From: Nitratireductor sp. ZSWI3
Lineage (GTDB): Bacteria; Pseudomonadota; Alphaproteobacteria; Rhizobiales; Rhizobiaceae
DNA: 34,232 nt
Direction: 5' to 3'
Assembly (NCBI RefSeq): GCF_024655565.1
Contig: NZ_JANKOF010000050.1
Coordinates: forward strand, 1-34,232
How positions within the stretch are numbered: position 1 is the stretch's first letter; each line of letters opens with the position of its first letter. This document shows positions 4,086-27,103 of the stretch, one piece after another. The notes below the pieces were generated by a model that saw only the letters and a program-made list of their open reading frames with translations, was not told the origin of the DNA and ran no database searches. The position numbers and the translations under genes were made by a program.

Positions 4086-4095
4086 GGGTCGCAAT

Positions 4096-4308: not shown

Positions 4309-4312
<4 letters not shown>
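4178..4312 (+). CDS. Short leader ORF or gene remnant coupled to the thiolase
   Basis: An ATG at 4178 with a good ribosome site (AAGGGG about 8 bp upstream) opens a 44-codon frame whose TGA overlaps the GTG start of the thiolase (GTGA at 4309-4312). A longer version starts at 4127. I do not recognise a complete family. The piece NGDAAVGNPPANVRSQ resembles the beginning of crotonase-fold enoyl-CoA hydratases, which typically read xVAVITxDNPPVNALS, so this could be the collapsed remnant of an enoyl-CoA hydratase gene. No other hydratase gene is visible in this operon. It may still be translated and serve to couple ribosomes to the thiolase start. The product itself is unlikely to be an enzyme. 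Confidence 0.4.
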
Positions 4313-5484
<1,172 letters not shown>

Positions 5485-5495
5485 GGAGAAACGTG

Positions 5496-10115: not shown

Positions 10116-11033
10116 TCAGATACAAATATCCCGAACCCAGTCCCAGTAGATCTTGGCGATGCGCATTGTCATTGCTCCAGGCTTGCCATCACCGATAGCA
10201 CGGCCGTCGATCCTGGAGACCGGTGTGATGCCGCCCAACGTTCCTGTGACGAACGCCTCGTCCGCCGAATAAGCTTGGGTCAGGGTGAAGTCCTTCATGT
10301 GTCCCACGCCGATCCTCTCGTTCCAAAGGTCAAAGACATGGCCGCGCGTGATGCCGTTGAAGGAATATAGACCCGGCGACGTCCAGAGCTCCCCCTTGCG
10401 GACGATGAAGAAGTTGGTGGAATTGCAGCTCGCTACCATGCCGCGTTGGTCCAGCATCAGCGCTTCGTCCGCGCCGGCCGCGATCGCCTGGATCAGCGCC
10501 TGGATCAGGTTCAGCCGGCTATGCGAATTCCATCGCAGATCGAAGACATCGGGCGTGGAGCAGCGGAAGGTCGAAGTGAAGAGTGACAAGCCCTTCTCCG
10601 CGAACTCGGCGCGCGGTTTCTTCAACTCCGCCACGATCACCACCGTCGCACCGGATGCCATGAAGCGTGGATCCTGGTTTGGTGTCGTCTTGCGGCCGCG
10701 CGTGATCATCAGGCGGATGTGGGTGTTGTCCGTAAAGCCGTTTGTGGCACAGGTGTCCATCACCGCTTGCACCACTTCGGCACGGGTCATCCCGATGTCC
10801 ATGGAGATTGCCCGCGCTCCTTCGAACAGACGATCCATGTGCTGATCAACGGAAAGCAGCTTGCCGTTGACCAGGCGCAATCCCTCCCAGACGCCATCCC
10901 CCAACACGAAGCCAGCATCGAAAACCGAAACGGTTGCCTTGTCTCGGTGAACGAACGCGCCATTCACATAGACGAGAGCATTGTCATTGCGAGGATCACC
11001 GTCAAAGGACTGAGCACTGGAAGCAGGTATCAT
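10116..11033 (-). CDS. Class IV aminotransferase-fold protein lacking the PLP lysine
   Basis: A 305-aa member of the branched-chain/D-amino-acid aminotransferase fold family. The N-terminal half is typical (ALVYVNGAFV, DAGFVLGDGVWEGLR, HMDRLFEGARAI), as are AGADEALMLDQRGMVAS, CNSTNFFIVRKGELW and the C-terminal GTLGGITPV. In active family members a lysine about 20 residues before the DEALLLD-like strand forms the Schiff base with PLP. Here that region reads RWNSHSRLNLIQALIQAIAA, and no lysine occurs anywhere between Lys147 and Lys213. It may be inactive, may use PLP differently, or may bind another ligand. It is last in the amino-acid ABC transporter operon, 26 bp after the ATPase gene. Confidence 0.82.
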   Translation of the reverse strand: MIPASSAQSFDGDPRNDNALVYVNGAFVHRDKATVSVFDAGFVLGDGVWEGLRLVNGKLLSVDQHMDRLFEGARAISMDIGMTRAEVVQAVMDTCATNGFTDNTHIRLMITRGRKTTPNQDPRFMASGATVVIVAELKKPRAEFAEKGLSLFTSTFRCSTPDVFDLRWNSHSRLNLIQALIQAIAAGADEALMLDQRGMVASCNSTNFFIVRKGELWTSPGLYSFNGITRGHVFDLWNERIGVGHMKDFTLTQAYSADEAFVTGTLGGITPVSRIDGRAIGDGKPGAMTMRIAKIYWDWVRDICI

Positions 11034-11059: not shown

Positions 11060-11869
11060 TTAAAGTGAGAATTCCGAAGATCGCGCGATGAAGGCACGCG
11101 TCTTCTCCTTTTGCGGATTGCGAAAGATTTGCTCGCCAGTGCCGGTCTCGTGCACCACTCCGTCGTAGAGATAGATGACGTGGGTCGCAAACCGGTACGC
11201 GAAACCGAGTTCATGGGTCACCAGCAGCATTGTGCGCCCGTCCTCAGCCAGGGTCAGGATCGTACGCAGCACTTCGCCGACCAGTTCGGGATCGAGCGAG
11301 GAGGTCGGCTCGTCAAAAAGCAGAACCTCGGGGTCCATCGCCAGCGCCCGGGCGATGGCAACGCGTTGTTGCTGCCCGCCCGACAGACGCCCTGGATAGA
11401 CGTCGAGCTTGTCGCTCAAGCCGACGCGCTCCAGCTCATGCGCGGCGCGTGCCCGAGCCTCGGATTTCGGACGACGCATGACCGTGACCAGCCCCTCCAT
11501 CACGTTCTCGATGGAGCTCATATGAGGAAACAGGTTGAACTGCTGGAACACCATGCCGACGCGCCTGCGCACCGACATCAGTTCGCGCTCGGAATATGTC
11601 ACGGACTGAGACCCATCCCGCGCAGTGCGCACGGTGCCAATGCGTTCACCCTCGAGAAACACCTTGCCGCCGGTGGGCAGCTCCATGAAATTGAGACAGC
11701 GCAGCAACGTGCTCTTGCCAGAACCCGATCCACCGATGATGGCAATGCGGTCCCCCCGCTTCACATCGAGGTCGATACCTTTCAGCACCTCGATGGGACC
11801 GAAAGACTTGCGCAGATTCTCACTGCGCAAGATGGGAGCGTCCGTCGTGGATGGGGCAATCTCGCTCAT
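11060..11869 (-). CDS. Polar amino acid ABC transporter ATP-binding protein
   Basis: ATPase of a PAAT-family importer. Walker A is GGSGSGKSTLLRC, the Q-loop region is RVGMVFQQFNLFPH, the signature LSGGQQQRVAIARAL, Walker B VLLFDEPTSSLDPE, and the switch histidine lies in LLVTHELGFA. The start at 11869 gives 269 aa and has an AGGAGG site seven bases upstream. In-frame starts at 11896 (ATG) and 11908 (GTG, overlapping the permease stop) are possible but have poorer sites. The family mark FPHMSSIENVMEG places it with GlnQ/HisP-type importers. It energises the two permeases encoded just upstream and precedes the aminotransferase-like gene. Confidence 0.92.
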   Translation of the reverse strand: MSEIAPSTTDAPILRSENLRKSFGPIEVLKGIDLDVKRGDRIAIIGGSGSGKSTLLRCLNFMELPTGGKVFLEGERIGTVRTARDGSQSVTYSERELMSVRRRVGMVFQQFNLFPHMSSIENVMEGLVTVMRRPKSEARARAAHELERVGLSDKLDVYPGRLSGGQQQRVAIARALAMDPEVLLFDEPTSSLDPELVGEVLRTILTLAEDGRTMLLVTHELGFAYRFATHVIYLYDGVVHETGTGEQIFRNPQKEKTRAFIARSSEFSL

Positions 11870-11904
11870 CGGTGCGCCTCCTGTCTGGTCGGTCATCTTG
11901 AACC

Positions 11905-12570
11905 TCACGCCTTGCGGCGCATCCGCCGCTCGAGGGCGGAGGACGTCCAGGTCATCGGGTAAATCATCACCAGATAGACGACACCGACTGTGGTGAGGAT
12001 CTCGAGCGGACGGTAATAGGTCGAGGACAGGACGCGCCCTTGGTACATGAGCTCATGCACGCTGAGCACGGAGGCCAGTGAAGTCACCTTGGCCACCTCC
12101 ACCGCCCGATTCGTGAAGGCAGGCAGCATTCGACGAAAAACCTGGGGCAGGATTACACGGCGAAACGTATCGGCCCTGCTCATTCCGATGGCCATGGCCC
12201 CCTCCCACTGCCCCCGCTCGATCGATTGGATTCCCGAGCGGTAGATTTCGGCTGAGAAGGCGGCCGTGTTCAGGCTGATGCCCAGGGCGGCCGCAACAAA
12301 GGGGGTGAGCTGCGCGCCAATGAGGATCGGAAACGCGTAGAAGAACCAGATGAGCTGGATGAGCGCGGGAATGTTTCGAAACAATTCGACGAAGCTGCGG
12401 CCGGCGAGGCGAACCGGCGCGAACGGCGAAATACGCGCCAGCGAGACGAAAAAGCCGAGGACGAGACCAACCGCGAGGCAGATGACCCAGAGCTCAAGCG
12501 TCACAAGCACGCCTCGCCACAACACGGGCAGGATCTTCACGACCATGGAGAAATCGAACTGATATCCCAT
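11905..12570 (-). CDS. Polar amino acid ABC transporter permease
   Basis: Membrane subunit of 221 aa from ATG 12570, which has AGGAGG seven bases upstream; a GTG two codons earlier overlaps the previous stop. About five hydrophobic segments are visible. The HisM/GlnP-type sequence includes SFVELFRNIPALIQLIWFFYAFP, SAEIYRSGIQSIERGQWEGA, and the EAA-loop region AMAIGMSRADTFRRVILPQVFRRMLPAFTNR that contacts the ATPase. It follows a second, related permease, so the channel is probably a heterodimer as in the histidine and glutamate importers. Confidence 0.9.
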   Translation of the reverse strand: MGYQFDFSMVVKILPVLWRGVLVTLELWVICLAVGLVLGFFVSLARISPFAPVRLAGRSFVELFRNIPALIQLIWFFYAFPILIGAQLTPFVAAALGISLNTAAFSAEIYRSGIQSIERGQWEGAMAIGMSRADTFRRVILPQVFRRMLPAFTNRAVEVAKVTSLASVLSVHELMYQGRVLSSTYYRPLEILTTVGVVYLVMIYPMTWTSSALERRMRRKA

Positions 12571-12572
12571 GT

Positions 12573-13238
12573 TCACGCCTCCTGCAGCCGGTCTTCCAGA
12601 ATCTTGGCAAGTGAGGAGAGCACATAGAGCAGGGCGAAGTAGATCAGCGCCAGCAAGCTATAGGTCTCCAGCGGACGATAGGTGATCGACGCGATCTGCA
12701 TCCCTTGGTAGAGAAGCTCCCCATAGGCAAGGGTCGATGCCAGCGATGAGGTCTTCACGATCTCGAAGGAACGCTCGACGAAAGGTGCCACCATGCGGCG
12801 AGCCGCTTGTGGCACGATGATCCTCCGCAACGCATCGGCGCGCGACATTCCAAGAGCCGTAGCACCTTCCCATTGCCCCCGGACGATCGATTGAATGCCG
12901 CCACGCAAGACCTCGGCGTAGAAGGCGCTGGATTGCGTGGCAAGGGCTACAACCGCTGCTTCCAGCGGCCCGAGCTTCACATTGGTGATCACCGGCAACG
13001 CATAATAGACCCAGAAGAAATGCACGATGCCGGGAGTGTTGCGGTAGAACTCGATATATGCCGTGCCGATGGTGCGCAGCGCCACGTGACGCGACATCCG
13101 CATCGCCGCCACCAGTCCACCACCGACGATGCCGAAAAGGATCGCCAACGCCGAGATCGCGACGGTGCCCCAAAGACCATGCAGCAGCATTGGCCAATAG
13201 GCCAGAACCGCTCCGAAATCCCATTCATATTGCTGCAT
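12573..13238 (-). CDS. Polar amino acid ABC transporter permease
   Basis: Second permease, 221 aa, with GGAGG before its ATG at 13238. It shares the family plan with its neighbour: FYRNTPGIVHFFWVYYALP, YAEVLRGGIQSIVRGQWEGA, and the EAA loop ATALGMSRADALRRIIVPQA. The two permeases are clearly paralogous (QSIxRGQWEGA and GMSRAD in both). The gene is separated from the binding-protein gene by an 86-bp gap that holds a strong hairpin. Export of toxic amino acids is unlikely because a periplasmic receptor is present, so this is an importer. Confidence 0.9.
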   Translation of the reverse strand: MQQYEWDFGAVLAYWPMLLHGLWGTVAISALAILFGIVGGGLVAAMRMSRHVALRTIGTAYIEFYRNTPGIVHFFWVYYALPVITNVKLGPLEAAVVALATQSSAFYAEVLRGGIQSIVRGQWEGATALGMSRADALRRIIVPQAARRMVAPFVERSFEIVKTSSLASTLAYGELLYQGMQIASITYRPLETYSLLALIYFALLYVLSSLAKILEDRLQEA

Positions 13239-13324: not shown

Positions 13325-14155
13325 CTATTTCCACTCCTCTTTCACCAGGCCGGGCACCTTGGCGGGATCGATCCCTTTGGTTGCGATATAGGTCTCGAAA
13401 ATCTCGGTGGTTTTCCCGCTTTCGTAGGATTTGGTGATGAAGTCGTCGACCCAATCCTTGAACGAGGAATCGGCGGCCTTGGGCAAGCCGACGGAGGTAG
13501 GCACCGCATGGATTGGCTTGGGCAGCACCACGCTGCCGGTCCCGATGCGCGACACCTGCACGATGAGAGCCGGATGGAACTGCGACACCGCATCGACCCG
13601 CCGCGAGGCGAAGGCAGCGATGGCTTCATCATTGGACGCAAATCGCTCGATCTTGGCGTTCGGCAGCGTCTCGGTCAGCAGCCGGTCCACCGTCGTGCCC
13701 AGCGTAACACCGACGGTGGTGCCCTCGACATTCAGATCCTGCCAGTCGGAAATCTTCATGTCGTCTTGGATCAGCGCGCCCATGGCATAATAGAATAGCG
13801 GGTGATCGGGGAAGTCGATTGCCTTCTTGCGCTCGTCCGTCGGATCCAGCACGAACATCAGATCGATCTGACCGGCCTGGATTGCAGCGACGGAATTCGC
13901 CCATGTGGTTTCGACCGGCACAAATTCCACGCCCAGTTCCGCCGCCATGGCCTGTCCCATCTGGACACCCACGCCAGCCCATTCTTCCGAAATGGGATCC
14001 TTATAGAACCATGGATCGGCAGCGGCCATGCCAACCCGCAGCGCGCCGCGCTGCGTCACGGTTTCCAGCGCCGTCTGCGCAATGGCGGATGACATGGCGG
14101 AAAGGCTGAAAACAGCGGCGGCGGCCGCCTGAATCATCTTGCGTCTCGTGAACAT
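13325..14155 (-). CDS. Amino acid ABC transporter substrate-binding protein
   Basis: Periplasmic receptor of 276 aa from ATG 14155, which has GGGGAG upstream and opens directly into an export signal (MFTRRKMIQAAAAAVFSLSA, cleavage near AIA/Q). A frame extension upstream to 14239 was rejected because it would bury the signal. The mature protein is of the SBP_bac_3 type: LRVGMAAADPWFYKD, GVGVQMGQAMAAELGVEFVPV, IDLMFVLDPTDERKKAIDF, and LGTTVDRLLTETLP. These importers usually take up amino acids or related zwitterions. The receptor diverges from the GntR/sulfatase operon across a short regulatory region, which links its ligand to that pathway. Confidence 0.9.
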   Translation of the reverse strand: MFTRRKMIQAAAAAVFSLSAMSSAIAQTALETVTQRGALRVGMAAADPWFYKDPISEEWAGVGVQMGQAMAAELGVEFVPVETTWANSVAAIQAGQIDLMFVLDPTDERKKAIDFPDHPLFYYAMGALIQDDMKISDWQDLNVEGTTVGVTLGTTVDRLLTETLPNAKIERFASNDEAIAAFASRRVDAVSQFHPALIVQVSRIGTGSVVLPKPIHAVPTSVGLPKAADSSFKDWVDDFITKSYESGKTTEIFETYIATKGIDPAKVPGLVKEEWK

Positions 14156-14230
14156 GAGACTCCCCTCTTGGCTACTTTTTTGTCTCGTTCTTGACAGCGA
14201 TTGGGACGGAGCAAAGCCGTTATCGCCGAT

Positions 14231-14280
14231 GGTTGACAATCGATCATCGACAACATTTAATCAACAATAAATTATCAACC
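14231..14280. promoter_or_regulatory. Candidate GntR operator array in the divergent promoter region
   Basis: The 183-bp gap between the divergent receptor and regulator genes is AT-rich and symmetrical. GGTTGACAAT (14231-14240) and ATTATCAACC (14271-14280) are inverted copies matching at nine of ten bases. Between them lie further TCAAC/GACAAC half-sites (14249-14254, 14261-14265). The layout suits control of both operons by the GntR protein encoded at 14339. Binding is not demonstrated by sequence alone. Confidence 0.45.
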
Positions 14281-14338
14281 GGATGTGGAATTCTGCCAAT
14301 ATATGAGCCAGGGAGCGGGTTTCGGGCATGGAGGAACC

Positions 14339-15046
14339 ATGACATTGGCAGAACCAAAAACAGGCTTCGGGCAGATCCCGCGGCGCACGTTTCGGGAACA
14401 GATCGTCGAGGTATTGCGCACATCGATCATCAGCGGAAAACTGGCGCCGGGCTCGCAGATCGTGGAAGCGGAAATGGCCCGCACCTTCGGTGTCAGCCGC
14501 GGTCCGCTGCGTGAAGCATTGGGGGACCTGATCAAGGAAGGGCTGCTCGTCACCGTTCCATATACCGGCACCCATGTCGTTGATCTGTCGCTGAATGAGG
14601 TCAACGAGATTTTTTCGTTGCGTACCGAACTGGAGATCTTCGCGTTCCGGCAGATCTGGGACAAGCGCGACCAGGCTTACTACGACGAGTTGAATGCCCG
14701 TCACGACCGCTTGCTTGCCAGTATCGCCAGCGGTGACGACGAATCCAGCATCGTGGACGAACTTGCGTTGCACAGCCATGTCTACGAGGCCAGCGGTCAC
14801 TCCCTGCTGCTTGGCGTTTGGAACGGGTTGCGCGGCAAGCTCCAGCTCTACTGGGCGGCCCATCACCGTGCGCACGGCCGGCGTGGGCCGCTGCCCACGG
14901 GCCACACCAAATATGTCGAATTCGCCCAGGGCGAGGACATCGATCTGATGATCGAGGAAATCCGCGATCACATGGTGCGCGGATTCGCAAAGACAGAAGC
15001 CTTCCTGCGCGAGCGGGAACAATTCAAGCGAGGCGAACATTCATGA
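14339..15046 (+). CDS. GntR-family regulator with FCD domain
   Basis: Regulator of 235 aa from ATG 14339, preceded by GGAGG; an ATG at 14285 is a weaker start. The N-terminal winged helix is clear (TFREQIVEVLRTSIISGKLAPGSQI, VEAEMARTFGVSRGPLREAL), followed by an all-helical FCD effector domain (RTELEIFAFRQIW, LHSHVYEASGHSLLLGVW, EIRDHMVRGFAKTEAFLRER). FCD regulators usually sense small carboxylates or amino acids and repress catabolic genes. It is the first gene of the sulfatase/mutase/FGE operon, its stop overlaps the sulfatase start, and it faces the amino-acid transporter operon, so it probably controls both. Confidence 0.9.
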   Translation: MTLAEPKTGFGQIPRRTFREQIVEVLRTSIISGKLAPGSQIVEAEMARTFGVSRGPLREALGDLIKEGLLVTVPYTGTHVVDLSLNEVNEIFSLRTELEIFAFRQIWDKRDQAYYDELNARHDRLLASIASGDDESSIVDELALHSHVYEASGHSLLLGVWNGLRGKLQLYWAAHHRAHGRRGPLPTGHTKYVEFAQGEDIDLMIEEIRDHMVRGFAKTEAFLREREQFKRGEHS

Positions 15047-16521
15047 GCGGCACGGACCGTCCGAACATTCTCCTCGTCACCGTCGATCAGTGGCCGGGGC
15101 ATCTGCTTGGAGCCGCGGGTCATCCGGCGATCCAGACGCCGACACTCGATGAGTTGTGTCGCATTGGAATCCGGTTCATCAACGCGCACAGCGAATGCCC
15201 GATCTGCGTGCCGGCGCGGCGGACGCTTATGACCGGGGCATCGCCCCGACGCCATGGCGACAGGGTGTATGATGACCAGCTCGCCATGCCCGCGGACACC
15301 CTGGCATCATCCTTTTCCGCCGCAGGATACCAGACGCAAGGTATCGGCAAACTGCATGTCTTTCCCCAACGCGACCGCATCGGATTCGATGATGTGCAAT
15401 TGGAAGAGGAAGGCAGAGCGCAGTACGGGGTAATGGATGATTATGAGATATGGCTGGGTGACAAGGGCTATCCCGGCCAGCAGTTCGACCACGGGATGAG
15501 CACGGACGGATATGTCCACCGCCCGTGGCATCTGCCCGAGGAACTGCATGTCACCAATTGGGCGACCCAGCAGATGATCCGCCAGATCAAGCGGCGCGAT
15601 CCGAAGCGGCCGGCCTTTTGGTATCTCTCCTATCGCCATCCGCACCCGCCGCTCGTGCCCCTGCAGGCTTATCTCGACATGTATCGCGATATCGAGATCG
15701 ATATGCCGTTGACGGACAACTGGGCTCAGGTGCAGGACCTGCCATATGCGGTTGCCTCCAAGCGCAAGCGGGGCGAAAAATATTCTGCGCTGCAGATCGC
15801 TGCGATCCGCAGGGCGTTCTATGCACTGTGCACGCATATCGATCACCAGTTCCGGCTTGTGATCGGAACACTGCGCGAGGAGAGGCTGCTCGACAACACG
15901 ATCATCCTCTTCACCTCCGATCACGGCGACATGCTGGGCGACCACGGGCTTTGGGCCAAGAGCCTCTTCTACCGAGGCTCGACCTCAATTCCGATGATTC
16001 TCGTCGCTCGTCCCTGCGATACGACGCTCGGCACAGGAGTGGAGAGCGACCGCCTGGTGACCCTGGCCGACGTCATGCCGACATTGCTCTCACTCGCCGG
16101 ATTGCCGGTGCCCGACACGGCCGACGGACAGTCGTTTTTCGACGACACCCCACGCCGTACGGTCTATGGCGAATTCGGAACCGACGACGGCGCGACCCGA
16201 ATGGTTCGAGACCAACGGTTCAAGCTGGTCTACTACCCCGTTGGCAATGTGCGGCAGCTCTTCGACCTGGAAAACGACCCCCAGGAATCCTGCGATCTCG
16301 CCACCGCGCCGGAACATGCCGAAAGCCTCGCCCGCCTGACCGATCTTCTGATCGCCGAATTCTACAGTTCGGATCTCGAGTGGCTGACCAATGGGGAATT
16401 GACCGGCTTGCCGAACAAGCAAGCCGGCCCCAGGCGCAACCGCGACCTCTCGAGCCAACGCGGCCATCACTGGCCACCGCAGCTGCACTCGGACATGCCT
16501 CAGATCCTGACGAGCGCATGA
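15043..16521 (+). CDS. Sulfatase-family hydrolase, cytoplasmic, formylglycine type
   Basis: Alkaline-phosphatase-superfamily sulfatase of 492 aa. The N-terminus NILLVTVDQW supplies the first metal ligands (Asp15 and Gln16). Cys55 in CVPARRTLMTG is the CxPxR cysteine that is oxidised to formylglycine. Asp293-His294 in FTSDHGDMLGDHG complete the metal site, and Lys306 follows in WAKSLFYRGS. There is no signal peptide, so it acts in the cytoplasm on an imported substrate. It could hydrolyse a sulfate ester, or a phosphonate monoester as some close relatives do. The ATG overlaps the GntR stop and the TGA overlaps the mutase start, so it belongs to one operon with its activating enzyme (FGE). Confidence 0.92.
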   Translation: MSGTDRPNILLVTVDQWPGHLLGAAGHPAIQTPTLDELCRIGIRFINAHSECPICVPARRTLMTGASPRRHGDRVYDDQLAMPADTLASSFSAAGYQTQGIGKLHVFPQRDRIGFDDVQLEEEGRAQYGVMDDYEIWLGDKGYPGQQFDHGMSTDGYVHRPWHLPEELHVTNWATQQMIRQIKRRDPKRPAFWYLSYRHPHPPLVPLQAYLDMYRDIEIDMPLTDNWAQVQDLPYAVASKRKRGEKYSALQIAAIRRAFYALCTHIDHQFRLVIGTLREERLLDNTIILFTSDHGDMLGDHGLWAKSLFYRGSTSIPMILVARPCDTTLGTGVESDRLVTLADVMPTLLSLAGLPVPDTADGQSFFDDTPRRTVYGEFGTDDGATRMVRDQRFKLVYYPVGNVRQLFDLENDPQESCDLATAPEHAESLARLTDLLIAEFYSSDLEWLTNGELTGLPNKQAGPRRNRDLSSQRGHHWPPQLHSDMPQILTSA

Positions 16522-18275
16522 ACCGCACCGACCCTCTCCTCCCTCTTTGCGACCTGCCCAGCGGGGCAGAACTCCTGGCTGAAGGCGCCGCGGCCGCTAA
16601 GGCTTGGTACGTCGGCCCTTCGGCATTCCTGTCTCATGTAGGAGCGGACTGCGAACACGATTTCAAGCTCGGCCGGATGGCGGAACGGAAAGTGATGCAG
16701 CACGCCCAGATCGGATACCGAGATCTCGATAAAAGCTGCCGAGCCTATGCCGAGATCTGGGAGATCTGCGACAAAAGGAGAGTGACGGTCGACCGCTACG
16801 GTCTGTGCCTTGACTGGTCGATGGGCGTGCTGCGCGAGAAGCGCAGCGACGCCACGCGGGGTACCGGGATGATTCTCGAAGGGCCTGAGGATTTTGTCCG
16901 GTTGGCAAACGCCGCGCCTGTCGCCCCGCATTTCGGAGATTTCGTCCTCGGTTTCGGTGCAGCCTTCGAAAACACCAAGGCGGCGCTGGCTGCCGGATGC
17001 ACCGCAGTCGGCAACCTCGGCCAATATTTCACCTTCCGCATCCCCGGGCACGACGACGACATCGAGGCCACGCAGCAGACCGTGCGCGCGCTCGGCCTGA
17101 TCGCGGCGCAACCCGTGCCGGTGATGGTTCATTCCAACATTGATGACGGTTATGCTGCTCAGTTCACCGATCTGGCATCCTGTCTCGGTATGATTCTGAT
17201 CGAACGTGACATCATCGGGAGGCTCGTCGGTGCGCCGATAGGCCATTGCTATGGCCACCATTTCTCGGACCCCTTTGCACGCCTGTCGTTCCAGCGCGCC
17301 ATGGCAATGGCGGGAGCCGCACCAGGCACGGTGATCTACGGAAACACCACCTCCTATCGGGGAACGCCCGCGGAGAACTACAGTGGACTGGCATCCTATC
17401 TGCTGACCGACGCGCTCGGCCAGATGACCAGCCCGACCGGCCATGCGATTAACGCCGTGCCGGTGACCGAGAACCAGCGCATCCCCGAGATCGATGAAGT
17501 GATCGACGCTCAGTTGTTCGCCGCGTCATTGATCCGCCATGCCGAAGGTTTCCCGCCGCTGGTGGACAAAGCTGCCGTCGAGCGAATGGCGAGCGAGCTT
17601 TTGGCGGGCGCACGTCGTTTCCAAGCCAATTTGATCGGCGGATTGACTGAGCGTGGCGTGAACACCGATTGCGTTTTCCAGATGCTGCTTTCGCTGCGCC
17701 GTCTCGGAGCCCGGGCCATCGAGCGCGATTACGGGGCAGGACCGGCGGATGAGCGCGTAGCGGGCGGGCGGGCACCGCTGTTCCCCGCTTCGCTGCTCAA
17801 GGAGTTGTCGGAGATGAGCGCCGAGGCTCTGAAGGAAATACCGGCCGAACAGCTGGAACGCATCCGCAAAGCCAGGCCACGCATTCTGGTGGCCACCTCG
17901 GACGTGCATGAACACGGGAAGATGCTTATTGATCGCATCGCGGTCGACATCGACGCGGTGCCGCTTGACGGTGGCGTTTCGACGGAGCCGGAGCGGCTCG
18001 CCGCCCTGGCTGCGGAGTTGCGCCCCGATATCATCGCCATCAGCACATACAACGGCATCGCCCTAAAATATTACGAGACATTGTGCCGAGAGCTACAGGC
18101 GCTTGGTCTCGACATTCCGGTGCTGATAGGCGGGAGGCTCAATCAGATTCCAGAAGGCTCCAACAGCTCGCTCCCGGTCGATGTCGGCGCACAGCTCGGC
18201 AAAGCAGGTGCGATCGTCTGCCGGGAAGCGCGCGAGCTGATGGAACACCTCGATGTCCTTTTCGGCAAGATTTGA
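16518..18275 (+). CDS. Single-chain B12-dependent mutase, glutamate-mutase-like
   Basis: 585-aa protein of two parts. Residues ~1-430 resemble the TIM-barrel subunit of B12-dependent mutases of the glutamate mutase (GlmE) type, with segments such as RVTVDRYGLCLDWSMG, GNLGQYFTFRIPG, VPVMVHSNIDDGYAAQ and TSPTGHAINAVPVTEN. Residues ~455-585 are a cobalamin-binding Rossmann domain: the base-off DxHxxG motif is Asp462-His464-Gly467 (TSDVHEHGKML), followed by IAISTYNG and a GGRLNQ turn. In glutamate mutase these are separate E and S chains; here they are one polypeptide. A radical carbon-skeleton rearrangement of an amino-acid-like substrate is likely. The substrate is unknown. The start overlaps the sulfatase stop, and an FGE gene follows 5 bp later. 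Confidence 0.8.
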   Translation: MNRTDPLLPLCDLPSGAELLAEGAAAAKAWYVGPSAFLSHVGADCEHDFKLGRMAERKVMQHAQIGYRDLDKSCRAYAEIWEICDKRRVTVDRYGLCLDWSMGVLREKRSDATRGTGMILEGPEDFVRLANAAPVAPHFGDFVLGFGAAFENTKAALAAGCTAVGNLGQYFTFRIPGHDDDIEATQQTVRALGLIAAQPVPVMVHSNIDDGYAAQFTDLASCLGMILIERDIIGRLVGAPIGHCYGHHFSDPFARLSFQRAMAMAGAAPGTVIYGNTTSYRGTPAENYSGLASYLLTDALGQMTSPTGHAINAVPVTENQRIPEIDEVIDAQLFAASLIRHAEGFPPLVDKAAVERMASELLAGARRFQANLIGGLTERGVNTDCVFQMLLSLRRLGARAIERDYGAGPADERVAGGRAPLFPASLLKELSEMSAEALKEIPAEQLERIRKARPRILVATSDVHEHGKMLIDRIAVDIDAVPLDGGVSTEPERLAALAAELRPDIIAISTYNGIALKYYETLCRELQALGLDIPVLIGGRLNQIPEGSNSSLPVDVGAQLGKAGAIVCREARELMEHLDVLFGKI

Positions 18276-18280: not shown

Positions 18281-19204
18281 ATGGGCTGCTGCACGCCGGA
18301 ACCGAAGTCTGATGGAGCGCACCCGATTGCCGCACGGCCCGCAACGCGGGTGTCGGCCCCATCGCTCATAAGCCTCCCGGGCGGCACCTTCGCCATGGGC
18401 TACGAGGGCCCGGAAATCGTCGCCGCTGACGGCGAGGCCCCGGTGCGCCCGGCCCGCGTCAGCCCGTTTAGCATCGCCCCAGCGGCCGTGACCCGTGCCG
18501 AATTCTGCGCCTTCGTCGAGGCGACCAGTTATGTTACCGCCGCCGAGCGGTTTGGCTCGTCCTTTGTCTTCCATGCCTGCTTGTCCGCGCCCGACGATCA
18601 CCCGGCAGTGCCACATACACCTTGGTGGCGGGAGCTCCGGGGAGCGTCCTGGCGGTGCCCGCACGGGCCAGGTTCGGAGCGGGCGGTGCCGGAGGATCAC
18701 CCGGTCACACATGTGGGCTGGCACGACGCCATGGCCTATTGCCGATGGTCCGGCACGCGTCTTCCGACCGAGGAGGAGTGGGAATTCGCCGCCCGCGGCG
18801 GCCTCGAGGGACGTCGGTATCCGTGGGGCGATGATTTCATGCCGGACGGAGAGCCCCGTTGCACCAGCTTCGCGGGTGCTTTTCCGCAGCCGAATAATCC
18901 ACAAGGCTACCTCGGAACGACGGCAGTTCGGACCCATGCGCCCAATGCGTATGGCCTCTACCAGATGACCGGCAATGTTTGGGAGTGGTGTCTGCGTCCC
19001 AGCGCTGACCGCAAGAGCGACCGGACGGACCTGCGCCCCATCCGCGGTGGCTCGCATTTGTGCCACCACAGTTATTGCAGCCGCTACCGCACCTCATCGC
19101 GGTTGATGGCGCCCGCCGCGACCACGGCGGGGCACATCGGGTTCCGTGTCGCCCGCGATGGCGAGAAATACCCCCGGACGGGCAGTGTAGGCGATTGTGC
19201 TTAG
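18281..19204 (+). CDS. Formylglycine-generating enzyme (sulfatase maturation)
   Basis: FGE/SUMF1-family protein of 307 aa from ATG 18281. It has the family segments ISLPGGTFAMGYEG, HPVTHVGWHDAMAYCRWSGTRLPTEEEWEFAARGG, YPWGDDF and MTGNVWEWC. Most telling is GGSHLCHHSYCSRYRTSSR near the C-terminus, where Cys261 and Cys266 match the two copper-binding catalytic cysteines of true FGEs (human CHRSYC). Many FGE-sulfatase-domain proteins lack them, so this one should really oxidise the sulfatase cysteine to formylglycine. No signal peptide is seen, which fits a cytoplasmic sulfatase as client. It lies 5 bp after the mutase and closes the operon. Confidence 0.93.
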   Translation: MGCCTPEPKSDGAHPIAARPATRVSAPSLISLPGGTFAMGYEGPEIVAADGEAPVRPARVSPFSIAPAAVTRAEFCAFVEATSYVTAAERFGSSFVFHACLSAPDDHPAVPHTPWWRELRGASWRCPHGPGSERAVPEDHPVTHVGWHDAMAYCRWSGTRLPTEEEWEFAARGGLEGRRYPWGDDFMPDGEPRCTSFAGAFPQPNNPQGYLGTTAVRTHAPNAYGLYQMTGNVWEWCLRPSADRKSDRTDLRPIRGGSHLCHHSYCSRYRTSSRLMAPAATTAGHIGFRVARDGEKYPRTGSVGDCA

Positions 19205-19458: not shown

Positions 19459-20217
19459 TTAGTACATCCCAGAAAATAAAGAGCCATAGCCGGGCACGAC
19501 AGTGCTCAAACCGAGCCGCTTCAACATCATGTATGTTGTCGCTACCGACGAGGAGATCACTGGCAATCCGGTACGGTCCTCGATGATCTGGATAGAAGCG
19601 AGCGACGGCATCTGGACGCAGGCGGACGCGATGATTGCATCCGTGCCGGCGGTCTTGAGCCGCTTGGTGATCTCGGCCGGCGCAAGCGGATCCTGGCAGC
19701 CCACTTCGAGATTGTCAGATATCTCGAGAGAGATGCTGTCGACCACCTCGATCCCTTCGTTCTCGATATAGTTGATCACCAGTTGCGTCAGCGGCTTCAT
19801 GTATGGCGCGAGAATGGAGATTTTCTTCGCTCCAAGCACGTTCAGAGCATCGACTAGGGCGCCAGCGCTCGTAACGACGGGTGCAGGAGCACCATTCTCC
19901 ACCGTCCTCCCGTGCAGCCGTTCCTCGGACACGCGGTGATAACCCGGGCCCATGCTCATGATCGCAACCAGGCAGGCGTAGCCCAGAACATCAACCCGCG
20001 CGTCGGAAAGCTCCAGCGCGCAACGGTCGCTGTCGGCATCCATCGACGCAAGCTCGTCCTTTGTTACCTTCTTCATGCGCATGCGGCTGGAATGGAAGGT
20101 GAAGCGTTCCGGTTCGATCGCTTCACGGGCGCGAAGCACCGCCGGGATCTCCGTCTCCATGGTCGTATTCGAAGAAGGAACGATCTGGCCGATGCGGTAG
20201 GTGCGAGACTCGCTCAT
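19459..20217 (-). CDS. maiA: Maleate cis-trans isomerase
   Basis: Asp/Glu-racemase-superfamily enzyme of 252 aa that converts maleate to fumarate. The N-terminus YRIGQIVPSSNTTMETEIP is characteristic, as is RFTFHSSRMRMK. The two active-site cysteines are Cys82 (GYACLVAIMSMG) and Cys200 (SACVQMPSL), matching the positions in characterised maleate isomerases of nicotinate-degrading bacteria, where the gene is maiA or nicE. Its ATG overlaps the nitrilase stop by four bases and has AGGAG upstream. It is the last gene of the dioxygenase operon and delivers the C4 product to the TCA cycle as fumarate. I am confident of the family and fairly confident of the reaction. Confidence 0.92.
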   Translation of the reverse strand: MSESRTYRIGQIVPSSNTTMETEIPAVLRAREAIEPERFTFHSSRMRMKKVTKDELASMDADSDRCALELSDARVDVLGYACLVAIMSMGPGYHRVSEERLHGRTVENGAPAPVVTSAGALVDALNVLGAKKISILAPYMKPLTQLVINYIENEGIEVVDSISLEISDNLEVGCQDPLAPAEITKRLKTAGTDAIIASACVQMPSLASIQIIEDRTGLPVISSSVATTYMMLKRLGLSTVVPGYGSLFSGMY

Positions 20218-21242
20218 TGCTCGGACTCCTGAACGGTTTCGGCGGCGGTATCCGGAATGGCTGAACTGCCGTCCACGTCCGCGTCGTCAAAGTGCGCGGG
20301 CTGATGAGCTCTGCGGTTCACGCGCAGATCGAAGACGTCGAAGCGGTTGTAGTGGCCGGTGATGTCGTGCATTTGTCGTGGCTGGATGCAGCGTGACAGG
20401 TCGATGTCGGCATAGATAATTCCCTCGTCGTCTATCAGTGGCTCTCCGATGACCCGACCGTCCGGTCCGAGGATGCCAGAAAAAGCGCTGTTGCTACGTG
20501 ACAGCGACTCGCGCGCCTGAGGATGTGACGCGCTTACTGCTTCGATAATTTCTTGCGAAATGGTCGAACACGAGACGATCGTGAAGACCTTGCCCTCGAA
20601 ACTGTGGGCTGCGGCGCGTACTTTGATCGCGTCCGCCATGTCGTAGTCCGGCGGTGCGACCGGCAGTGCGATGTAGCTCGCGACATGGACCAGTTCTCCC
20701 TGCGCAAGCAGTGCGAAACGCGCCAGTGTATTTGTATTTTCTCCACAGGCGAGTGCGCCGAGTCGGCCAATGCTCGTTTCGTGCACTCTAAGAGCCGAAG
20801 CATCGCCGGGCGCCCATGTGAGCTTTTCGGCCCAGGTCGGCACCAGCTTGCGGTGCCGCCCGAGGATGCGCCCGTCATCAGCGATCGTCACCAGTGTGTT
20901 GTAGATTGTGCCGATACCGTAGGGACTGCGCTCGTTGACGCCGATCACGACGTTGACCTTGTGACGCGCGGCCGCCTGCGCGATTTTGGTAATTTCTGGC
21001 CCCGGAATCTCGATAGCCGAACGCGCCAGCTTCTCGAACCAGGGGCTGCCCTCTACCGGGTTCATCACCCAGCTCCAGTATGGATAGCCGGCGACGAAGA
21101 CCTCGGGAAAGGCCACGAGCCCGGCCCCATTGCCGGCTGCCTCACCGATCAGGTCACAGACCTTGTCAACGGTGGCGTTGGTATCCAAGAAGACCGGTGC
21201 GGCCTGAACCGCGGCGGCTTTGAATTTCGGCAGGTCGAGCAT
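20214..21242 (-). CDS. Nitrilase (carbon-nitrogen hydrolase family)
   Basis: Nitrilase of 342 aa from ATG 21242, which has GAGGAG upstream. The catalytic triad is complete: Glu47 (LVAFPEVFVAGYP), Lys132 (GRHRKLVPTWAEK) and Cys166 (ALACGENTNTLARFALL). The GYPYWSW segment and the long C-terminal tail (IPDTAAETVQESEQ) place it with classical aliphatic or arylacetonitrilases rather than with carbamoylases, so it should hydrolyse a nitrile to the acid plus ammonia. An open-frame extension upstream to 21542 is not part of the gene: it runs through a fragment of a cupin dioxygenase gene. The stop overlaps maleate isomerase by four bases. Confidence 0.9.
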   Translation of the reverse strand: MLDLPKFKAAAVQAAPVFLDTNATVDKVCDLIGEAAGNGAGLVAFPEVFVAGYPYWSWVMNPVEGSPWFEKLARSAIEIPGPEITKIAQAAARHKVNVVIGVNERSPYGIGTIYNTLVTIADDGRILGRHRKLVPTWAEKLTWAPGDASALRVHETSIGRLGALACGENTNTLARFALLAQGELVHVASYIALPVAPPDYDMADAIKVRAAAHSFEGKVFTIVSCSTISQEIIEAVSASHPQARESLSRSNSAFSGILGPDGRVIGEPLIDDEGIIYADIDLSRCIQPRQMHDITGHYNRFDVFDLRVNRRAHQPAHFDDADVDGSSAIPDTAAETVQESEQ

Positions 21243-21311
21243 AAGCCACTCCTCGCTTAAAAGATCGGTGGGATGGAAAGGTGACGAGGCAAAGCCTGGA
21301 CCGCCACGATC

Positions 21312-21413
21312 AGATTTTCTGAGCGTCCGGATACCGCCGACACCTGCCTCCGGCGTGACGAGATCGACTGAGCGCAGCAGATGATGGCGAACATTCTGGT
21401 AGCGCCAAAATTC
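21312..21413 (-). pseudogene. Relic of a bicupin ring-cleavage dioxygenase
   Basis: In the 235-bp gap before the nitrilase gene, one minus-strand frame reads FWRYQNVRHHLLRSVDLVTP followed by EAGVGG. The intact dioxygenase at 28065-29186 has LWRYQDLRTHVLRSVDLVTP followed by EKAGRR at its residues 59-84. The match covers about 25 residues with only conservative changes and then fades on both sides. It lacks a start and the metal-binding domains. It is a diverged remnant of a second copy, not a recent duplicate. Confidence 0.75.
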
Positions 21414-21477
21414 TGCGCCGAAGCCGTGACATCGGCAGGATTGGATGGCGCCTGCGCGAAGGCTGCCTTGAAGGGTT

Positions 21478-22374
21478 TCAGAACGTCTCTCCTTCGGCAT
21501 CTCGGGCAATCGAGGCGCATAAGGCCTCGACCAGAGCGCCATCGGGCTCGCAAAGACTGAGCGCGATGTCGAAATGATTGTGCGACGGCATGTCGATCAC
21601 CTGGGTCGCATGTCCGGCCCTTTGCCAGGCCGCTGCGTAGTCCAGCGTCTGGCGGATGAACTCCCCGGTTTCCCGCCCGCCAACGGAGGCGATCAGCCGT
21701 GCCCCGGTTCTTTCGGGGATCAGCCGGATAGGCGAGTTCTCGGCAATCGACGCCGCATCGAAATGCATCCAGCTGTTCACCTGCGTGTGCTGCAGAGGCT
21801 CCAACTCATGTAGCCCGCTCAGGGCCAGAACAGTGCCAAGCGTATCCTCCGGCAGGCCGAACGTTTCGAGCCAGCCGCCGGCAAGCAGCATGCCCGCGAG
21901 ATGACCGCCAGCGGACGAGCCGCCAACATGTATCCGGTGCGCATCGAGACCATGTTTCGCCCCGTTCCGCTTCAGCCAAGCAACGGCGCTGCGCACCTGC
22001 CGCACCATTTCGTCTATGCCGGCTTCGGGCGCGAGAGTGTAGTTCATCACCGCGACCGAGATCCCGTGCGCGGTCAGGCCGCCGGCGGCAAAGGCGTTGT
22101 CCTCCTTGGAACCGCCGCGCCAGTAACCGCCGTGGATCCACAGAAAGACCGGGCTGCTACCGCCGGCCCTGTAAAGATCGAGCCTCTCGCCACTCCGCAC
22201 GTCGTAGACGATGTCACGCGCGGCTGCGAGACTCTGTTTGACGCGCTCGCTTTCGGCCACATAGCGGGCATATTCCGCATCGAAAGAGGCAACGCTTTCA
22301 CGCGCATTGTATTCGTGCTCCAGTGTGGCCCGGTCCATGCCCCGATGGAGTGGCGATGGGACATCCATACTCAT
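21478..22374 (-). CDS. Alpha/beta hydrolase, formamidase/esterase type
   Basis: Hydrolase of 298 aa. The oxyanion-hole motif is HGGYWRGG (81-88), the nucleophile Ser154 lies in HVGGSSAGGHLAG, and the histidine is in MPSHNHFDIAL near the C-terminus. HGGYWRxxxK followed by GxSAGG is typical of the kynurenine-formamidase/esterase group, which cleaves N-formyl or short ester bonds. The ATG overlaps the preceding ATPase stop (ATGA). In this operon it could remove a formyl or acyl group from an aromatic or maleamate-type intermediate, comparable to N-formylmaleamate deformylase in nicotinate breakdown. That assignment is inference. Confidence 0.85.
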   Translation of the reverse strand: MSMDVPSPLHRGMDRATLEHEYNARESVASFDAEYARYVAESERVKQSLAAARDIVYDVRSGERLDLYRAGGSSPVFLWIHGGYWRGGSKEDNAFAAGGLTAHGISVAVMNYTLAPEAGIDEMVRQVRSAVAWLKRNGAKHGLDAHRIHVGGSSAGGHLAGMLLAGGWLETFGLPEDTLGTVLALSGLHELEPLQHTQVNSWMHFDAASIAENSPIRLIPERTGARLIASVGGRETGEFIRQTLDYAAAWQRAGHATQVIDMPSHNHFDIALSLCEPDGALVEALCASIARDAEGETF

Positions 22375-23066
22375 ACCCCCAGGTAGCGATGCGCGAGGTC
22401 TTCATTGGCGGAGAGCTCGTTCGGCGAGCCCTGCCAAACCACCCTGCCCTTTTCGACGATGTGATGCCGGTCGACGAGCGAGGCCATTTCCTTAAGGTTC
22501 TTGTCGACCACGAGGATCGACTGGCCGAGTTCCTTCAACTGGCGCAGGGTCGCCCAGATGTCGGAGCGGATCACCGGGGCGAGCCCTTCCGTCGCCTCAT
22601 CGAGGATCAGCAGCGCGGGGTTGGTCAAAAGCGCCCGACCAACGGCCAGCATCTGCTGCTCACCGCCCGAAAGCGTGGCGGCGAACTGGCCGCGCCGTTC
22701 GCACAGGCGTGGAAACAGATCGTAGATCCGCTGCAGGGTCCAGCCGTCCGCACCGCCTAGCCGGGATGTCGCGACCAGGTTCTCCTCCACCGTGAGCGAG
22801 GGGAAGACGCGGCGCCCCTCCGGCACAAGCCCGATGCCGCGCCGGGCGATGGCATTGGGCTGCAGGGCGGTGATGCTTTCGCCTTCGAGGCGGACATCGC
22901 CGCCTCTGGCACGCACCATACCGAGGATGGTGTGGATGGTGGTGGTCTTGCCCATGCCGTTGCGGCCGATGAGCGATGTGACCGAGCCGCGCGGCACGTC
23001 GAACTCCATGCCGAACAGCACTTGGCTGACGCCATATCCTGCTTCGAGAGCCGTCACCTTCAACAT
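22371..23066 (-). CDS. Branched-chain-type ABC transporter ATPase, LivF type
   Basis: ATP-binding subunit of 231 aa. Walker A is GRNGMGKTTTIHTILG, the signature LSGGEQQMLAVGRALL, and Walker B LLILDEATEGLAP. RRGIGLVPEGRRVFPSLTVEENL is a strong LivF mark, and the C-terminus (LSANEDLAHRYLGV) is typical. It begins within the end of the LivG-type gene (7-bp overlap) and its stop overlaps the alpha/beta hydrolase start. Together with the other four components it forms a complete hydrophobic-amino-acid/aromatic-acid-type importer. Confidence 0.93.
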   Translation of the reverse strand: MLKVTALEAGYGVSQVLFGMEFDVPRGSVTSLIGRNGMGKTTTIHTILGMVRARGGDVRLEGESITALQPNAIARRGIGLVPEGRRVFPSLTVEENLVATSRLGGADGWTLQRIYDLFPRLCERRGQFAATLSGGEQQMLAVGRALLTNPALLILDEATEGLAPVIRSDIWATLRQLKELGQSILVVDKNLKEMASLVDRHHIVEKGRVVWQGSPNELSANEDLAHRYLGV

Positions 23067-23836
23067 GCTTCGTCTCCCAGATAGGCGCTGCGCACTTCCG
23101 GATTCCGACGCACTTCGTCCACAGTGCCGGTGAAAATCACGCGGCCGTAAACCAGGACGCTGATCCGGTCAGCGAGCGTGAACACGGCATCCATGTCGTG
23201 CTCGACCAGAAGCATGGGATACTCCCCCTTCAGCTCCCCGAGCAGGTCCACCATGCGGGCGGACTCCTCCGCGCCCATGCCCGCCATGGGCTCGTCCAGC
23301 ACCAGAACATGCGGCTTGCGCGCCAGCGACACAGCGAGTTCCAGCTGCCGCCTTTCGCCATGGGCGAGATTGGCGACCTGACGGCTTTCACGCCCGGTCA
23401 GGCCGACCTTGCCGATCCAATGCATTGCCTCCTCGCGCAACGCGGCGTCGTTGCGGGGATTGGCGACCAGGTTGAACGATCCGCCTTCCATGCAGTCCAG
23501 CGACAAGATCACATGCTCGAGCACACTGAATTCAAAGCAAAGCTGCGTCGTCTGGAACGAACGCCCGAGCCCGAGCCGTGCACGCTTGAAGGCGCTGAGA
23601 TCGGTGACGTCGCGCCCCTTGAAGCTGACACGGCCGGCGTCCGACCGCATCTCACCACAAATCTGCGCGATCAGCGTGGATTTGCCCGCCCCGTTCGGCC
23701 CAATCAGCGCATGGATTTCACCGCTGCGGACTTCCAGCGTCACGTCGTCGGTCACCTTCAGCGCACCGAACGCCTTGTGCAGTTGGTCAAGCGATAGAAC
23801 GCTGACGTCGGCTGCGCTCACGCCGGCTTCAGTCAT
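23060..23836 (-). CDS. Branched-chain-type ABC transporter ATPase, LivG type
   Basis: ATP-binding subunit of about 258 aa from ATG 23836, which has GGAGGG upstream and overlaps the LivM-type stop. A start at 23863 would overlap more. Walker A is GPNGAGKSTLIAQI, the signature region LAHGERRQLELAVSLA, Walker B VLVLDEPMAGMG and the switch MLLVEHDMDAVF. GLGRSFQTTQLCFEFSVLEH and the C-terminal VRSAYLGDE mark LivG/BraF. The usual SGG of the signature is AHG here, which is normal for this subunit type. Confidence 0.93.
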   Translation of the reverse strand: MTEAGVSAADVSVLSLDQLHKAFGALKVTDDVTLEVRSGEIHALIGPNGAGKSTLIAQICGEMRSDAGRVSFKGRDVTDLSAFKRARLGLGRSFQTTQLCFEFSVLEHVILSLDCMEGGSFNLVANPRNDAALREEAMHWIGKVGLTGRESRQVANLAHGERRQLELAVSLARKPHVLVLDEPMAGMGAEESARMVDLLGELKGEYPMLLVEHDMDAVFTLADRISVLVYGRVIFTGTVDEVRRNPEVRSAYLGDEAC

Positions 23837-24806
23837 GGCGCCCTCCCTTAAGGTAGCGACCAAGCATGCCTTGCTGGCCGAACAGTGCGATCAGCACCAG
23901 CATAGGGCCCATGACGATCATCCAGTGCTCCGTCCAGATGGTCAGGATCTGCTCCAGACCAATGAACACAGCGGCACCGGCGATGGGACCGAGCAGCGTA
24001 CCCAGTCCGCCCAGCGTGACGATCGCCAAGAATTCCCCGGACTTGGCCCAGGTGGCCATGTCGGGGGTGACGAACTCGGCATAATTGGCCCACAATATGC
24101 CGGCGAGCCCGGTGCCAACGGCCGAAATAACGAAGGCGGTCAGCCGGAAGGGAAGCGGGTTGACGCCGAGATTGACGGCGCGCCGCTCGCTCTGCCTGAG
24201 CGCCTGAAAAACCAGGCCGAAACGCGAGTTGACAATGAGGCGGCAGAAGAGCACCCACACCACCAGAAGGGTCAGCGCCAGGTAATAGAACGCCCACGGG
24301 TCGTCGAGCTGGATGCTAGGCATGGTGTTGCGCATGTCCATCATCAACCCGTCGTCACCGCCGTAATACTGAAGCGAGACGAGAACGAAGTAGACCATCT
24401 GCGCGAAGGCGAGTGTGATCATAATGAACTGCACGCCGCGCGTTTTGAGCGCCAGATAGCCGACCACCAGCCCGAGCAGGGCGCAGGCGAGAAGCGCCAG
24501 CGGCCACAGGAGGAGCGCCGAATTTGTGCCTTCCCAGCCGAAGATGGTGTCGCCCATATTCGTGTGGTGGAGGAGGACCGCCACCACATAGCCGCCAAGG
24601 CTGAAGAACATGGCGTGGCCGAAGCTCACCAGCGCGCCATAGCCAATGATCAGGTCGAGGCTCACCACGGCCAGCGCATAGATGACGATGCGGGTCAGGA
24701 GCGGCAGTCCGCCGGACCAGTCGGTCTGCGCTATGACGACCGGGGCGATGATGAGCAGGGCCAGCATGACAAGGCCGGTCAACGTGAAACGGTTGAACCT
24801 AGACAT
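23829..24806 (-). CDS. Branched-chain-type ABC transporter permease, LivM type
   Basis: Inner-membrane permease of about 325 aa from ATG 24806, with GGAGC upstream. An in-frame ATG at 24836 would overlap the LivH-type gene. Many hydrophobic segments are present. LivM marks include DLIIGYGALVSFGHAMFFSLGGY near residue 50 and ESERRAVNLGVNP-like and GLAGILWANYAEFVTPD segments in the second half, then VTLGGLGTLLGPIAGAAVFIGL. It pairs with the LivH-type permease four bases upstream. Its ligand is set by the binding protein two genes upstream. Confidence 0.92.
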   Translation of the reverse strand: MSRFNRFTLTGLVMLALLIIAPVVIAQTDWSGGLPLLTRIVIYALAVVSLDLIIGYGALVSFGHAMFFSLGGYVVAVLLHHTNMGDTIFGWEGTNSALLLWPLALLACALLGLVVGYLALKTRGVQFIMITLAFAQMVYFVLVSLQYYGGDDGLMMDMRNTMPSIQLDDPWAFYYLALTLLVVWVLFCRLIVNSRFGLVFQALRQSERRAVNLGVNPLPFRLTAFVISAVGTGLAGILWANYAEFVTPDMATWAKSGEFLAIVTLGGLGTLLGPIAGAAVFIGLEQILTIWTEHWMIVMGPMLVLIALFGQQGMLGRYLKGGRHD

Positions 24807-24810
24807 CGGC

Positions 24811-25725: not shown

Positions 25726-25884
25726 CTCGCTCCGATGCTCCCGGTCTGGTGTCGAAGGGCAATTCGCTCCGATTGTTTCGAGGCGGAACGCAAACGCTTT
25801 GTCCAATTCACGCCCGACGCTCCCGGTCGCTCATCGGCGCAAGCCGAAGATCGCGTGATCTCCGGACCTGTCATGCTGCGTCCG

Positions 25885-27063: not shown

Positions 27064-27103
27064 CGCCAAATTCTCCTCCCTTGGATGCGCCCGCGAAGCC
27101 GGA

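Follow-up and report, generated by a model that had tools for sequence, protein, structure and literature searches.

Description

The window analyzed here is a stretch of 34,232 nucleotides from Nitratireductor sp. ZSWI3 (assembly GCF_024655565.1, contig NZ_JANKOF010000050.1, positions 1 to 34,232 of the forward strand), and our subject is a gene in it whose 585-residue product resembles vitamin B12-dependent mutases. The gene is an open frame of 585 codons (16518-18275, + strand) placed between a type I (formylglycine) sulfatase gene and a gene for a formylglycine-generating enzyme (FGE). The stop codon of the sulfatase overlaps the mutase start (ATGA, 16518-16521), and the mutase stop at 18275 is followed after 5 bp by the FGE ATG at 18281; length, overlap and spacing are all as given in an earlier account made from the letters of the window alone (the sequence-only reading). 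Homologues in other genomes show that the frame is a real gene. Neither Pfam nor NCBIfam has a curated name for the family, and both recognize its B12 domain only. From its predicted fold and gene context we propose, with a probability of roughly 55%, that the protein is a single-chain adenosylcobalamin (AdoCbl)-dependent radical mutase of this uncurated family, working within a module that would import and desulfate an amino-acid-like sulfate ester. The features of the locus are given in Table 1.

Table 1. Mutase gene, its predicted parts and the surrounding module in the window.
Feature	Coordinates	Strand	Basis or remark
B12-dependent mutase-like protein, 585 aa	16518..18275	+	TIM barrel, helical linker, C-terminal cobalamin domain
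Predicted (beta/alpha)8 barrel, residues 60-342	16695..17543	+	AlphaFold2 secondary structure; Foldseek of residues 12-346
Glu318 of E-x3-[IL]-P, between last barrel strand and last barrel helix	17469..17471	+	Position of GlmE Glu330, judged by topology and spacing
Rossmann cobalamin-binding domain, residues 455-583	17880..18266	+	DVHEHGK (D462, H464, G467), GG538-539
Type I (formylglycine) sulfatase, CxPxR	15043..16521	+	Domain from residue 7, no signal peptide apparent
Formylglycine-generating enzyme	18281..19204	+	Only one found in genome
GntR/FCD regulator	14285..15046	+
Polar amino-acid type substrate-binding protein (SBP_bac_3)	13325..14239	-	Divergent operon
ABC permease (BPD_transp_1)	12573..13238	-
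ABC permease (BPD_transp_1)	11905..12576	-
ABC ATPase	11060..11908	-
Fold-type IV aminotransferase (branched-chain / D-amino-acid type)	10116..11033	-

Predicted fold and conserved residues

The protein was predicted with AlphaFold2 from a 35-row homologue alignment (whole chain pLDDT 90.3, pTM 0.91) as an eight-stranded barrel (60-342), a helical linker and a Rossmann domain (455-583). Foldseek searches with the whole chain placed methylmalonyl-CoA mutases (MCM) at the top, followed by ornithine aminomutase (OAM), glutamate mutase E (GlmE, E 2.6e-7) and lysine aminomutase (LAM), with methionine synthases (MetH) interspersed with and below the mutase matches. Residues 12-346 were then predicted alone (pLDDT 90.7) to take away the weight of the B12 domain, and this barrel retrieved GlmE on top (6h9e_B, E 4.3e-7, TMq 0.66; 1cb7_B, E 3.0e-6) with lysine 5,6-aminomutase ranking after it, and ThiC, L-rhamnose isomerase, pyruvate carboxylase and MCM near E 1e-3. 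By predicted structure the barrel comes nearest to those of B12 mutases, and the likeness is at fold level. The radical-mutase-type barrel of the sequence-only reading was thereby borne out, and the outcome it had named as contrary, a barrel of a corrinoid methyltransferase or another non-mutase family, did not occur in the structure prediction. Its more specific description of the barrel as glutamate-mutase-like holds for the fold (6h9e_B and 1cb7_B) and fails for the sequence: the Pfam profile Met_asp_mut_E (PF06368) matched 0/35 homologues at E<=1, and alignment with hhalign was weak. No CoA-mutase barrel family was matched by Pfam or NCBIfam, the matches being confined to the B12 domain; a reading as acyl-CoA mutase was set low.

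In Pfam, the B12-binding family PF02310 matches residues 456-541 with 30.2 bits, just below the cut-off of 32.1, and the rest of the protein is unmatched. The same family is matched at E<=1 in 35/35 aligned homologues, D462, H464, G467 and K468 are invariant in all 35, and DVHEHGK is kept throughout, which upholds the DxHxxG cobalamin domain (Asp462, His464, Gly467) of the sequence-only reading. This is the base-off/His-on motif in a Rossmann domain by which carbon-skeleton mutases are known, and it is also common to MetH-type proteins.

In 35/35 members the motif GHAxNxVPxxENxRIP follows the final barrel strand and precedes the final barrel helix. Its E-x3-[IL]-P core was found at this place in all 35, in 9/12 GlmE and in the 4/4 MCM/isobutyryl-CoA mutase (ICM)-type proteins used; two of the three GlmE without it have E-x3-V-P. 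PMC3958899 connects Glu330 of GlmE with the adenosyl ribose, assigns OAM Glu338 a part in controlling Co-C homolysis, and places the lysine that holds pyridoxal phosphate (PLP) in OAM, Lys629, 11 residues past the cobalt-binding His618. The position 11 residues past the cobalt His is L, F, A or V in 35/35 members, with no Lys. The conserved Glu motif and the missing PLP lysine together favor an AdoCbl carbon-skeleton mutase that works without PLP. An aminomutase that uses PLP together with B12, as ornithine 4,5- and lysine 5,6-aminomutase do, would suit the amino-acid setting and the presence of LAM and OAM among the best fold matches, but with the lysine position occupied as it is in every member such an enzyme is hardly to be expected.

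Several results weigh against a mutase. NCBIfam matches the B12 domain with the MetH model TIGR02082 in 35/35 homologues and with GlmS models in 33/35, and the Lys directly after DxHxxG is also present in the MetH motif. The non-mutase TIM-barrel enzymes named above (ThiC, L-rhamnose isomerase, pyruvate carboxylase) also match the barrel at E<=0.001. The equivalence of Glu318 and GlmE Glu330 was drawn by topology and spacing, and two hhalign runs aligned the motif differently. Profile-profile comparison of the barrel with GlmE, MCM and MetH sets is not convincing and leaves the match one of fold only. With the whole alignment, the GlmE set gave P 0.037 over 32 columns and for the MCM set nothing but the B12 domain aligned (P 0.008, 115 columns); with the barrel only, P was 0.017 for GlmE, 0.024 for MetH and 0.59 for MCM, against 0.13, 0.34 and 0.64, respectively, in reversed-alignment controls. 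MetH scores near GlmE here, so the hhalign result is not to be over-read. The MCM and MetH sets are rough, having been assigned by reading long frames around B12-domain matches: six MCM loci were tried, with L056, L060, L063 and L111 used and L061 and L062 left out because no barrel start was found, and at least one MetH row is apparently in the wrong frame.

The MetH matches would be explained if the protein were a corrinoid methyltransferase, with methyl transfer to or from methylcobalamin in its barrel. There is a resemblance between DVHEHGK and DVHDIGK, the MetH motif, corrinoid-protein models are matched in up to 25/35 members beside the MetH model in all of them, and MetH is among the whole-chain Foldseek matches. 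We nevertheless find this very improbable: the barrel alone ranks GlmE and LAM first, with no corrinoid methyltransferase in the best 50 of 979 matches at E<=10, E-x3-[IL]-P is invariant in the members, and no methyl-group or corrinoid-reactivation gene appeared in a general scan of the window neighbors, in which none was searched for by name. No NCBIfam model spanned the barrel in the scan of homologues.

Comparison with known mutases

By fold and motif the family is mutase-like, as far as a predicted structure allows, and by sequence it falls outside the glutamate mutase family. The protein shares with GlmES of C. cochlearium (1cb7/6h9e) the closest barrel fold, a DxHxxG cobalamin domain and E-x3-I-P after the last strand. 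It differs in the missing Met_asp_mut_E match and in having its B12 domain C-terminal on the same chain, whereas three natural GlmS-GlmE fusions carry S at the N-terminus; nor was methylaspartase or GlmL, as in GlmES loci, seen among the window neighbors scanned. In each of these fusions (L109, L112 and L118) a natural open frame puts GlmS (GDSHSVG or GDAHSVG) in front of the GlmE N-terminus; in L118, a Roseibium plasmid, a gene annotated as amino acid racemase comes after it. Methylmalonyl-CoA and isobutyryl-CoA mutases likewise have a barrel followed by a C-terminal B12 domain, give the best whole-chain Foldseek match and carry E-x3-[IL]-P, but the barrel part of the window mutase is shorter than theirs and matches no CoA-mutase barrel family.

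A single chain was presented as a surprise in the sequence-only reading, which set it against the separate E and S chains of glutamate mutase. Single-chain organization is already known, from the GlmS-GlmE fusions and from 2-methyleneglutarate mutase (Mgm), a one-chain carbon-skeleton mutase compared here by description only; the part of PMC6257451 consulted describes Mgm as homodimeric and as an exception among bacterial isomerases. A possible relation to Mgm is the main doubt about novelty. The window protein could be a relative of Mgm: its single chain would then rearrange the carbon skeleton of a branched unsaturated dicarboxylate and not of an amino acid. Its carbon-skeleton mutase fold would agree with this, as would the length and domain order of Mgm, which we take to be similar. 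Mgm is known from an anaerobic nicotinate fermenter, unlike the proteobacterial hosts here, and the neighbor genes of our family point to amino or imino acids; we regard such a relative as unlikely.

A predicted novel B12 family with a CH-NH dehydrogenase as constant neighbor was described by Zhang et al. (2009), and is like ours in being an uncharacterized B12 protein beside such a gene (PMC2667541, in part). In the same part of that source its B12 domain is N-terminal, its hosts are Firmicutes, Chloroflexi and Thermotogae, and the neighbor is an octopine/nopaline dehydrogenase; by domain order and phyla the two families were judged different. Within open-licence PMC papers, nothing relevant was found that joins a sulfatase with a B12 mutase or with glutamate mutase.

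Gene neighborhoods

Homologues were found at 43 loci of a genome collection and in 10 plasmid records. Profile matches occurred in 16/394 genomes of the same taxonomic family (E<=1e-40), and in 27/347 genomes of the same order and 4/349 of the phylum (E<=1e-30); these samples overlap and each contains the source genome itself. Nine other genomes of the genus gave short B12-domain matches only, or none, so the mutase gene is accessory. A scan of viral contigs showed no relative of the mutase. Divergent relatives were seen in L036 (+7.2 kb), L108, L098-L100 and L168; those of L098-L100 and L168 stand with two ATP-binding cassette (ABC) ATPase-like genes, a pyrroline-5-carboxylate reductase-like (P5CR-like) gene and a small protein of unknown role, which in L098-L100 has 149 aa.

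Neighbors were surveyed at 93 loci (43 from the genome collection, 6 of the 10 plasmid records, 43 further genome stretches and the window), which became 89 after removal of 4 exact duplicates. Genes were called adjacent when their centers lay <=2.7 kb apart, on stop-to-stop frames. Contig ends fall <=2.7 kb from the mutase gene in 12/89 loci, the gene is split over two frames in L042 and L157, and close Mesorhizobium relatives are over-represented, so that the counts are not independent. Adjacent to the mutase gene are a P5CR-like gene in 34/89, an aspartate-dehydrogenase-like (AspDH-like) gene in 22/89, an alpha/beta hydrolase in 21/89, a sulfatase in 6/89 and an FGE in 4/89. Within the whole flank, a P5CR-like or AspDH-like gene occurs in 62/89, none of the six sulfatase loci among them, and amino-acid or peptide ABC importer genes in 36/89. 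A recount of P5CR-like genes gave the same 34 loci near the mutase and 52 in the flank, all with strong scores and again none in the six sulfatase loci; distances are mostly 1-2 kb, with a second group at 8 kb that corresponds to a rhizobial cluster.

In Phyllobacterium L065, the mutase gene follows a P5CR-like gene in a set annotated as proline racemase, flavin adenine dinucleotide (FAD) oxidoreductase, DapA, aldehyde dehydrogenase and polar amino-acid importer, which we take to resemble hydroxyproline use. The mutase has a proline racemase gene and one like D-amino-acid oxidase in its flanks in L029, L030, L036 and L095 as well, so hydroxyproline-type genes stand beside it in five loci. Across the 89 loci, the neighbor genes support the amino-acid-like setting that had been supposed for the mutase from the window alone. 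A large, mainly rhizobial cluster also surrounds the gene (L028-L038, L066, L086-L094 and kin), with FAD ketosteroid-dehydrogenase-like, cupin, aspartate-dehydrogenase-like, hydrolase, thiamine pyrophosphate E1, E2-hydrolase fusion, 3HCDH, SDR and P5CR-like genes; it is an unnamed catabolic pathway.

The gene beside the mutase that the sequence-only reading called a sulfatase is a type I sulfatase by profile (PF00884, E 8e-40) and motif (CVPAR, for CxPxR). It falls under the NCBIfam cut-offs for arylsulfatase and choline-sulfatase, and its nearest PDB entries are 9koq (named only 'Sulfatase') and choline-sulfatases. With its domain starting at residue 7, it looks cytosolic. The neighboring gene, called a true FGE in the same reading, proved to be one by profile (PF03781, E 4e-69, 233.5 bits) and by its Cys pair (GGSHLCHHSYC aligned to GGSFLCHESYC); its best PDB match is 6s07 (E 4e-79). 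In these features the two genes resemble known pairs of choline-sulfatase-type type I sulfatase and FGE, from which they differ by the sulfatase scores below cut-off and by the link to a B12 mutase-like gene. The genome has three Pfam-sulfatase matches, of which one other carries CxPxR (contig C1), and the single FGE may serve both CxPxR sulfatases. The adenosyltransferase CobA is also present, so AdoCbl can probably be made.

The six sulfatase loci are the window, Phaeobacter L003, Albibacillus L017, Gemmobacter L005, a Proteobacteria metagenome-assembled genome (L008) and Ramlibacter L012, with hosts in the Alpha- and Betaproteobacteria. Sulfatase, class IV aminotransferase, importer ATPase, two permeases and binding protein are together in 6/6 of them, CVPAR is present in 6/6 module sulfatases and the active-site Cys pair in 4/4 module FGEs. 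The class IV aminotransferase occurs in 0/83 flanks of the remaining loci and is thus exclusive to the six sulfatase modules among the 89. The sulfatase module is real, yet most of the mutase family does without it. Recurrence in other species upholds the link to sulfatase and FGE that the sequence-only reading had drawn from one locus, and the contrary outcome it had named, homologues without a recurrent sulfatase link, did not occur in the survey; the link is narrow all the same, at 6/89 and 4/89.

A quick tree with SH-aLRT support only, built from 83 rows because six of the 89 lacked the length, gathered the six sulfatase rows into a well supported set of 19 whose remaining members are six reductase-linked rows and seven others; the sulfatase label needs at least 2 changes on it. 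The Gemmobacter L005 module has mixed affinities. The mutases of L007 and L065 share 78-79% identity with its own, those of the window, L003 and L017 62-67%. Its binding protein, in contrast, is at 63-70% to the window's group versus 52-55% to L008/L012, its aminotransferase is mostly nearer the window's group, and it carries an FGE; its sulfatase, at 70-78% to the other five and about equally near to each, does not decide. L005 therefore combines the sulfatase module with a mutase of a branch that elsewhere stands beside a reductase. The simplest reading of these affinities is that mutases of both branches do the same job, and that the sulfatase would supply a compound which other hosts obtain otherwise. 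The word 'dedicated', used of the mutase in the sequence-only reading, is accordingly too strong: a sulfatase is adjacent in few loci, the L005 mutase groups with reductase-linked ones, and the source genome, in which one FGE was found, has a second CxPxR sulfatase on contig C1.

At the level of the genes, the proposal has further results to its disadvantage. No sulfatase stands beside the mutase in 83/89 loci, and the flanks of L008 and L012 yielded no FGE. The flank counts of P5CR-like and AspDH-like genes are raw counts, uncorrected for background. In seven Rhodobacterales loci (L011, L013-L016, L018, L043) the mutase is beside housekeeping clpX and/or NDUFA12, mostly in the order clpP-clpX-mutase-NDUFA12, and these neighbors are uninformative about a pathway.

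Sulfatase and mutase might also be mere passengers of one mobile module, acting on unrelated compounds, as the patchy spread (16/394 family genomes and no full match in the nine others of the genus) and the many mutase homologues without a sulfatase would allow. The ATGA overlap of the two genes argues otherwise, as does the retention of aminotransferase, importer and sulfatase together in 6/6 modules of distant hosts, with sulfatase identities down to 70%, and the chance that the two are unrelated appears small.

Elsewhere in the window, a gene of the ornithine cyclodeaminase/mu-crystallin family (PF02423; 31638-32795, +) lies about 13 kb from the mutase and may encode an imine reductase; mutase relatives often carry a P5CR-like reductase instead of a PF02423 gene. 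A separate-looking catabolic set (19459-27237, -) contains AMDase/EutA-like, Nit6803-like nitrilase and lipase-type esterase genes and a branched-chain amino-acid type ABC importer. A fatty- or organic-acid set (228-9824, +) consists of the tripartite ATP-independent periplasmic (TRAP) transporter genes DctP and DctM, an IclR regulator, thiolase, acyl-CoA dehydrogenase and an AMP-binding enzyme.

Proposed function

From the sequence, predicted fold, motif conservation and gene order we infer a cofactor form, mechanism, substrate class and pathway flow as follows. A sulfate ester would enter through the polar amino-acid ABC importer, and the cytosolic sulfatase, activated by the adjoining FGE, would strip the sulfate in the cell. 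The desulfated product would be processed by the mutase and the class IV aminotransferase, with transamination the later step. In the mutase, cobalamin would be bound base-off in the C-terminal Rossmann domain with His464 on the cobalt, and the N-terminal TIM barrel would hold the substrate and, with Glu318, also the adenosyl group. The 5'-deoxyadenosyl radical would abstract a hydrogen atom and so permit a 1,2-rearrangement of the carbon skeleton of an amino- or imino-acid-like substrate, without PLP or CoA. No substrate is nameable from the present evidence.

The mutase thus probably rearranges an amino-acid-like compound, the sulfatase being one way of supply, and in a few bacteria the gene set looks like one for uptake and breakdown of a sulfated compound that resembles an amino acid. 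More tentatively, and with the odds somewhat against it, the family may represent an undescribed class of single-chain AdoCbl mutases in Proteobacteria that rearranges the carbon skeleton of an amino or imino acid in a new way and usually has an imine reductase for partner, and of which one module lineage became joined to sulfatase and FGE for sulfated amino acid catabolism.

Only a small number of B12 radical mutases are known, and distinct metabolic routes have come to light with new ones. Members of this family, whose mutase fold is confidently predicted, are spread over various Proteobacteria, and their neighbors make the substrate class testable. If the proposal is true, the sulfatase modules would connect the use of organic sulfate esters with B12 supply.

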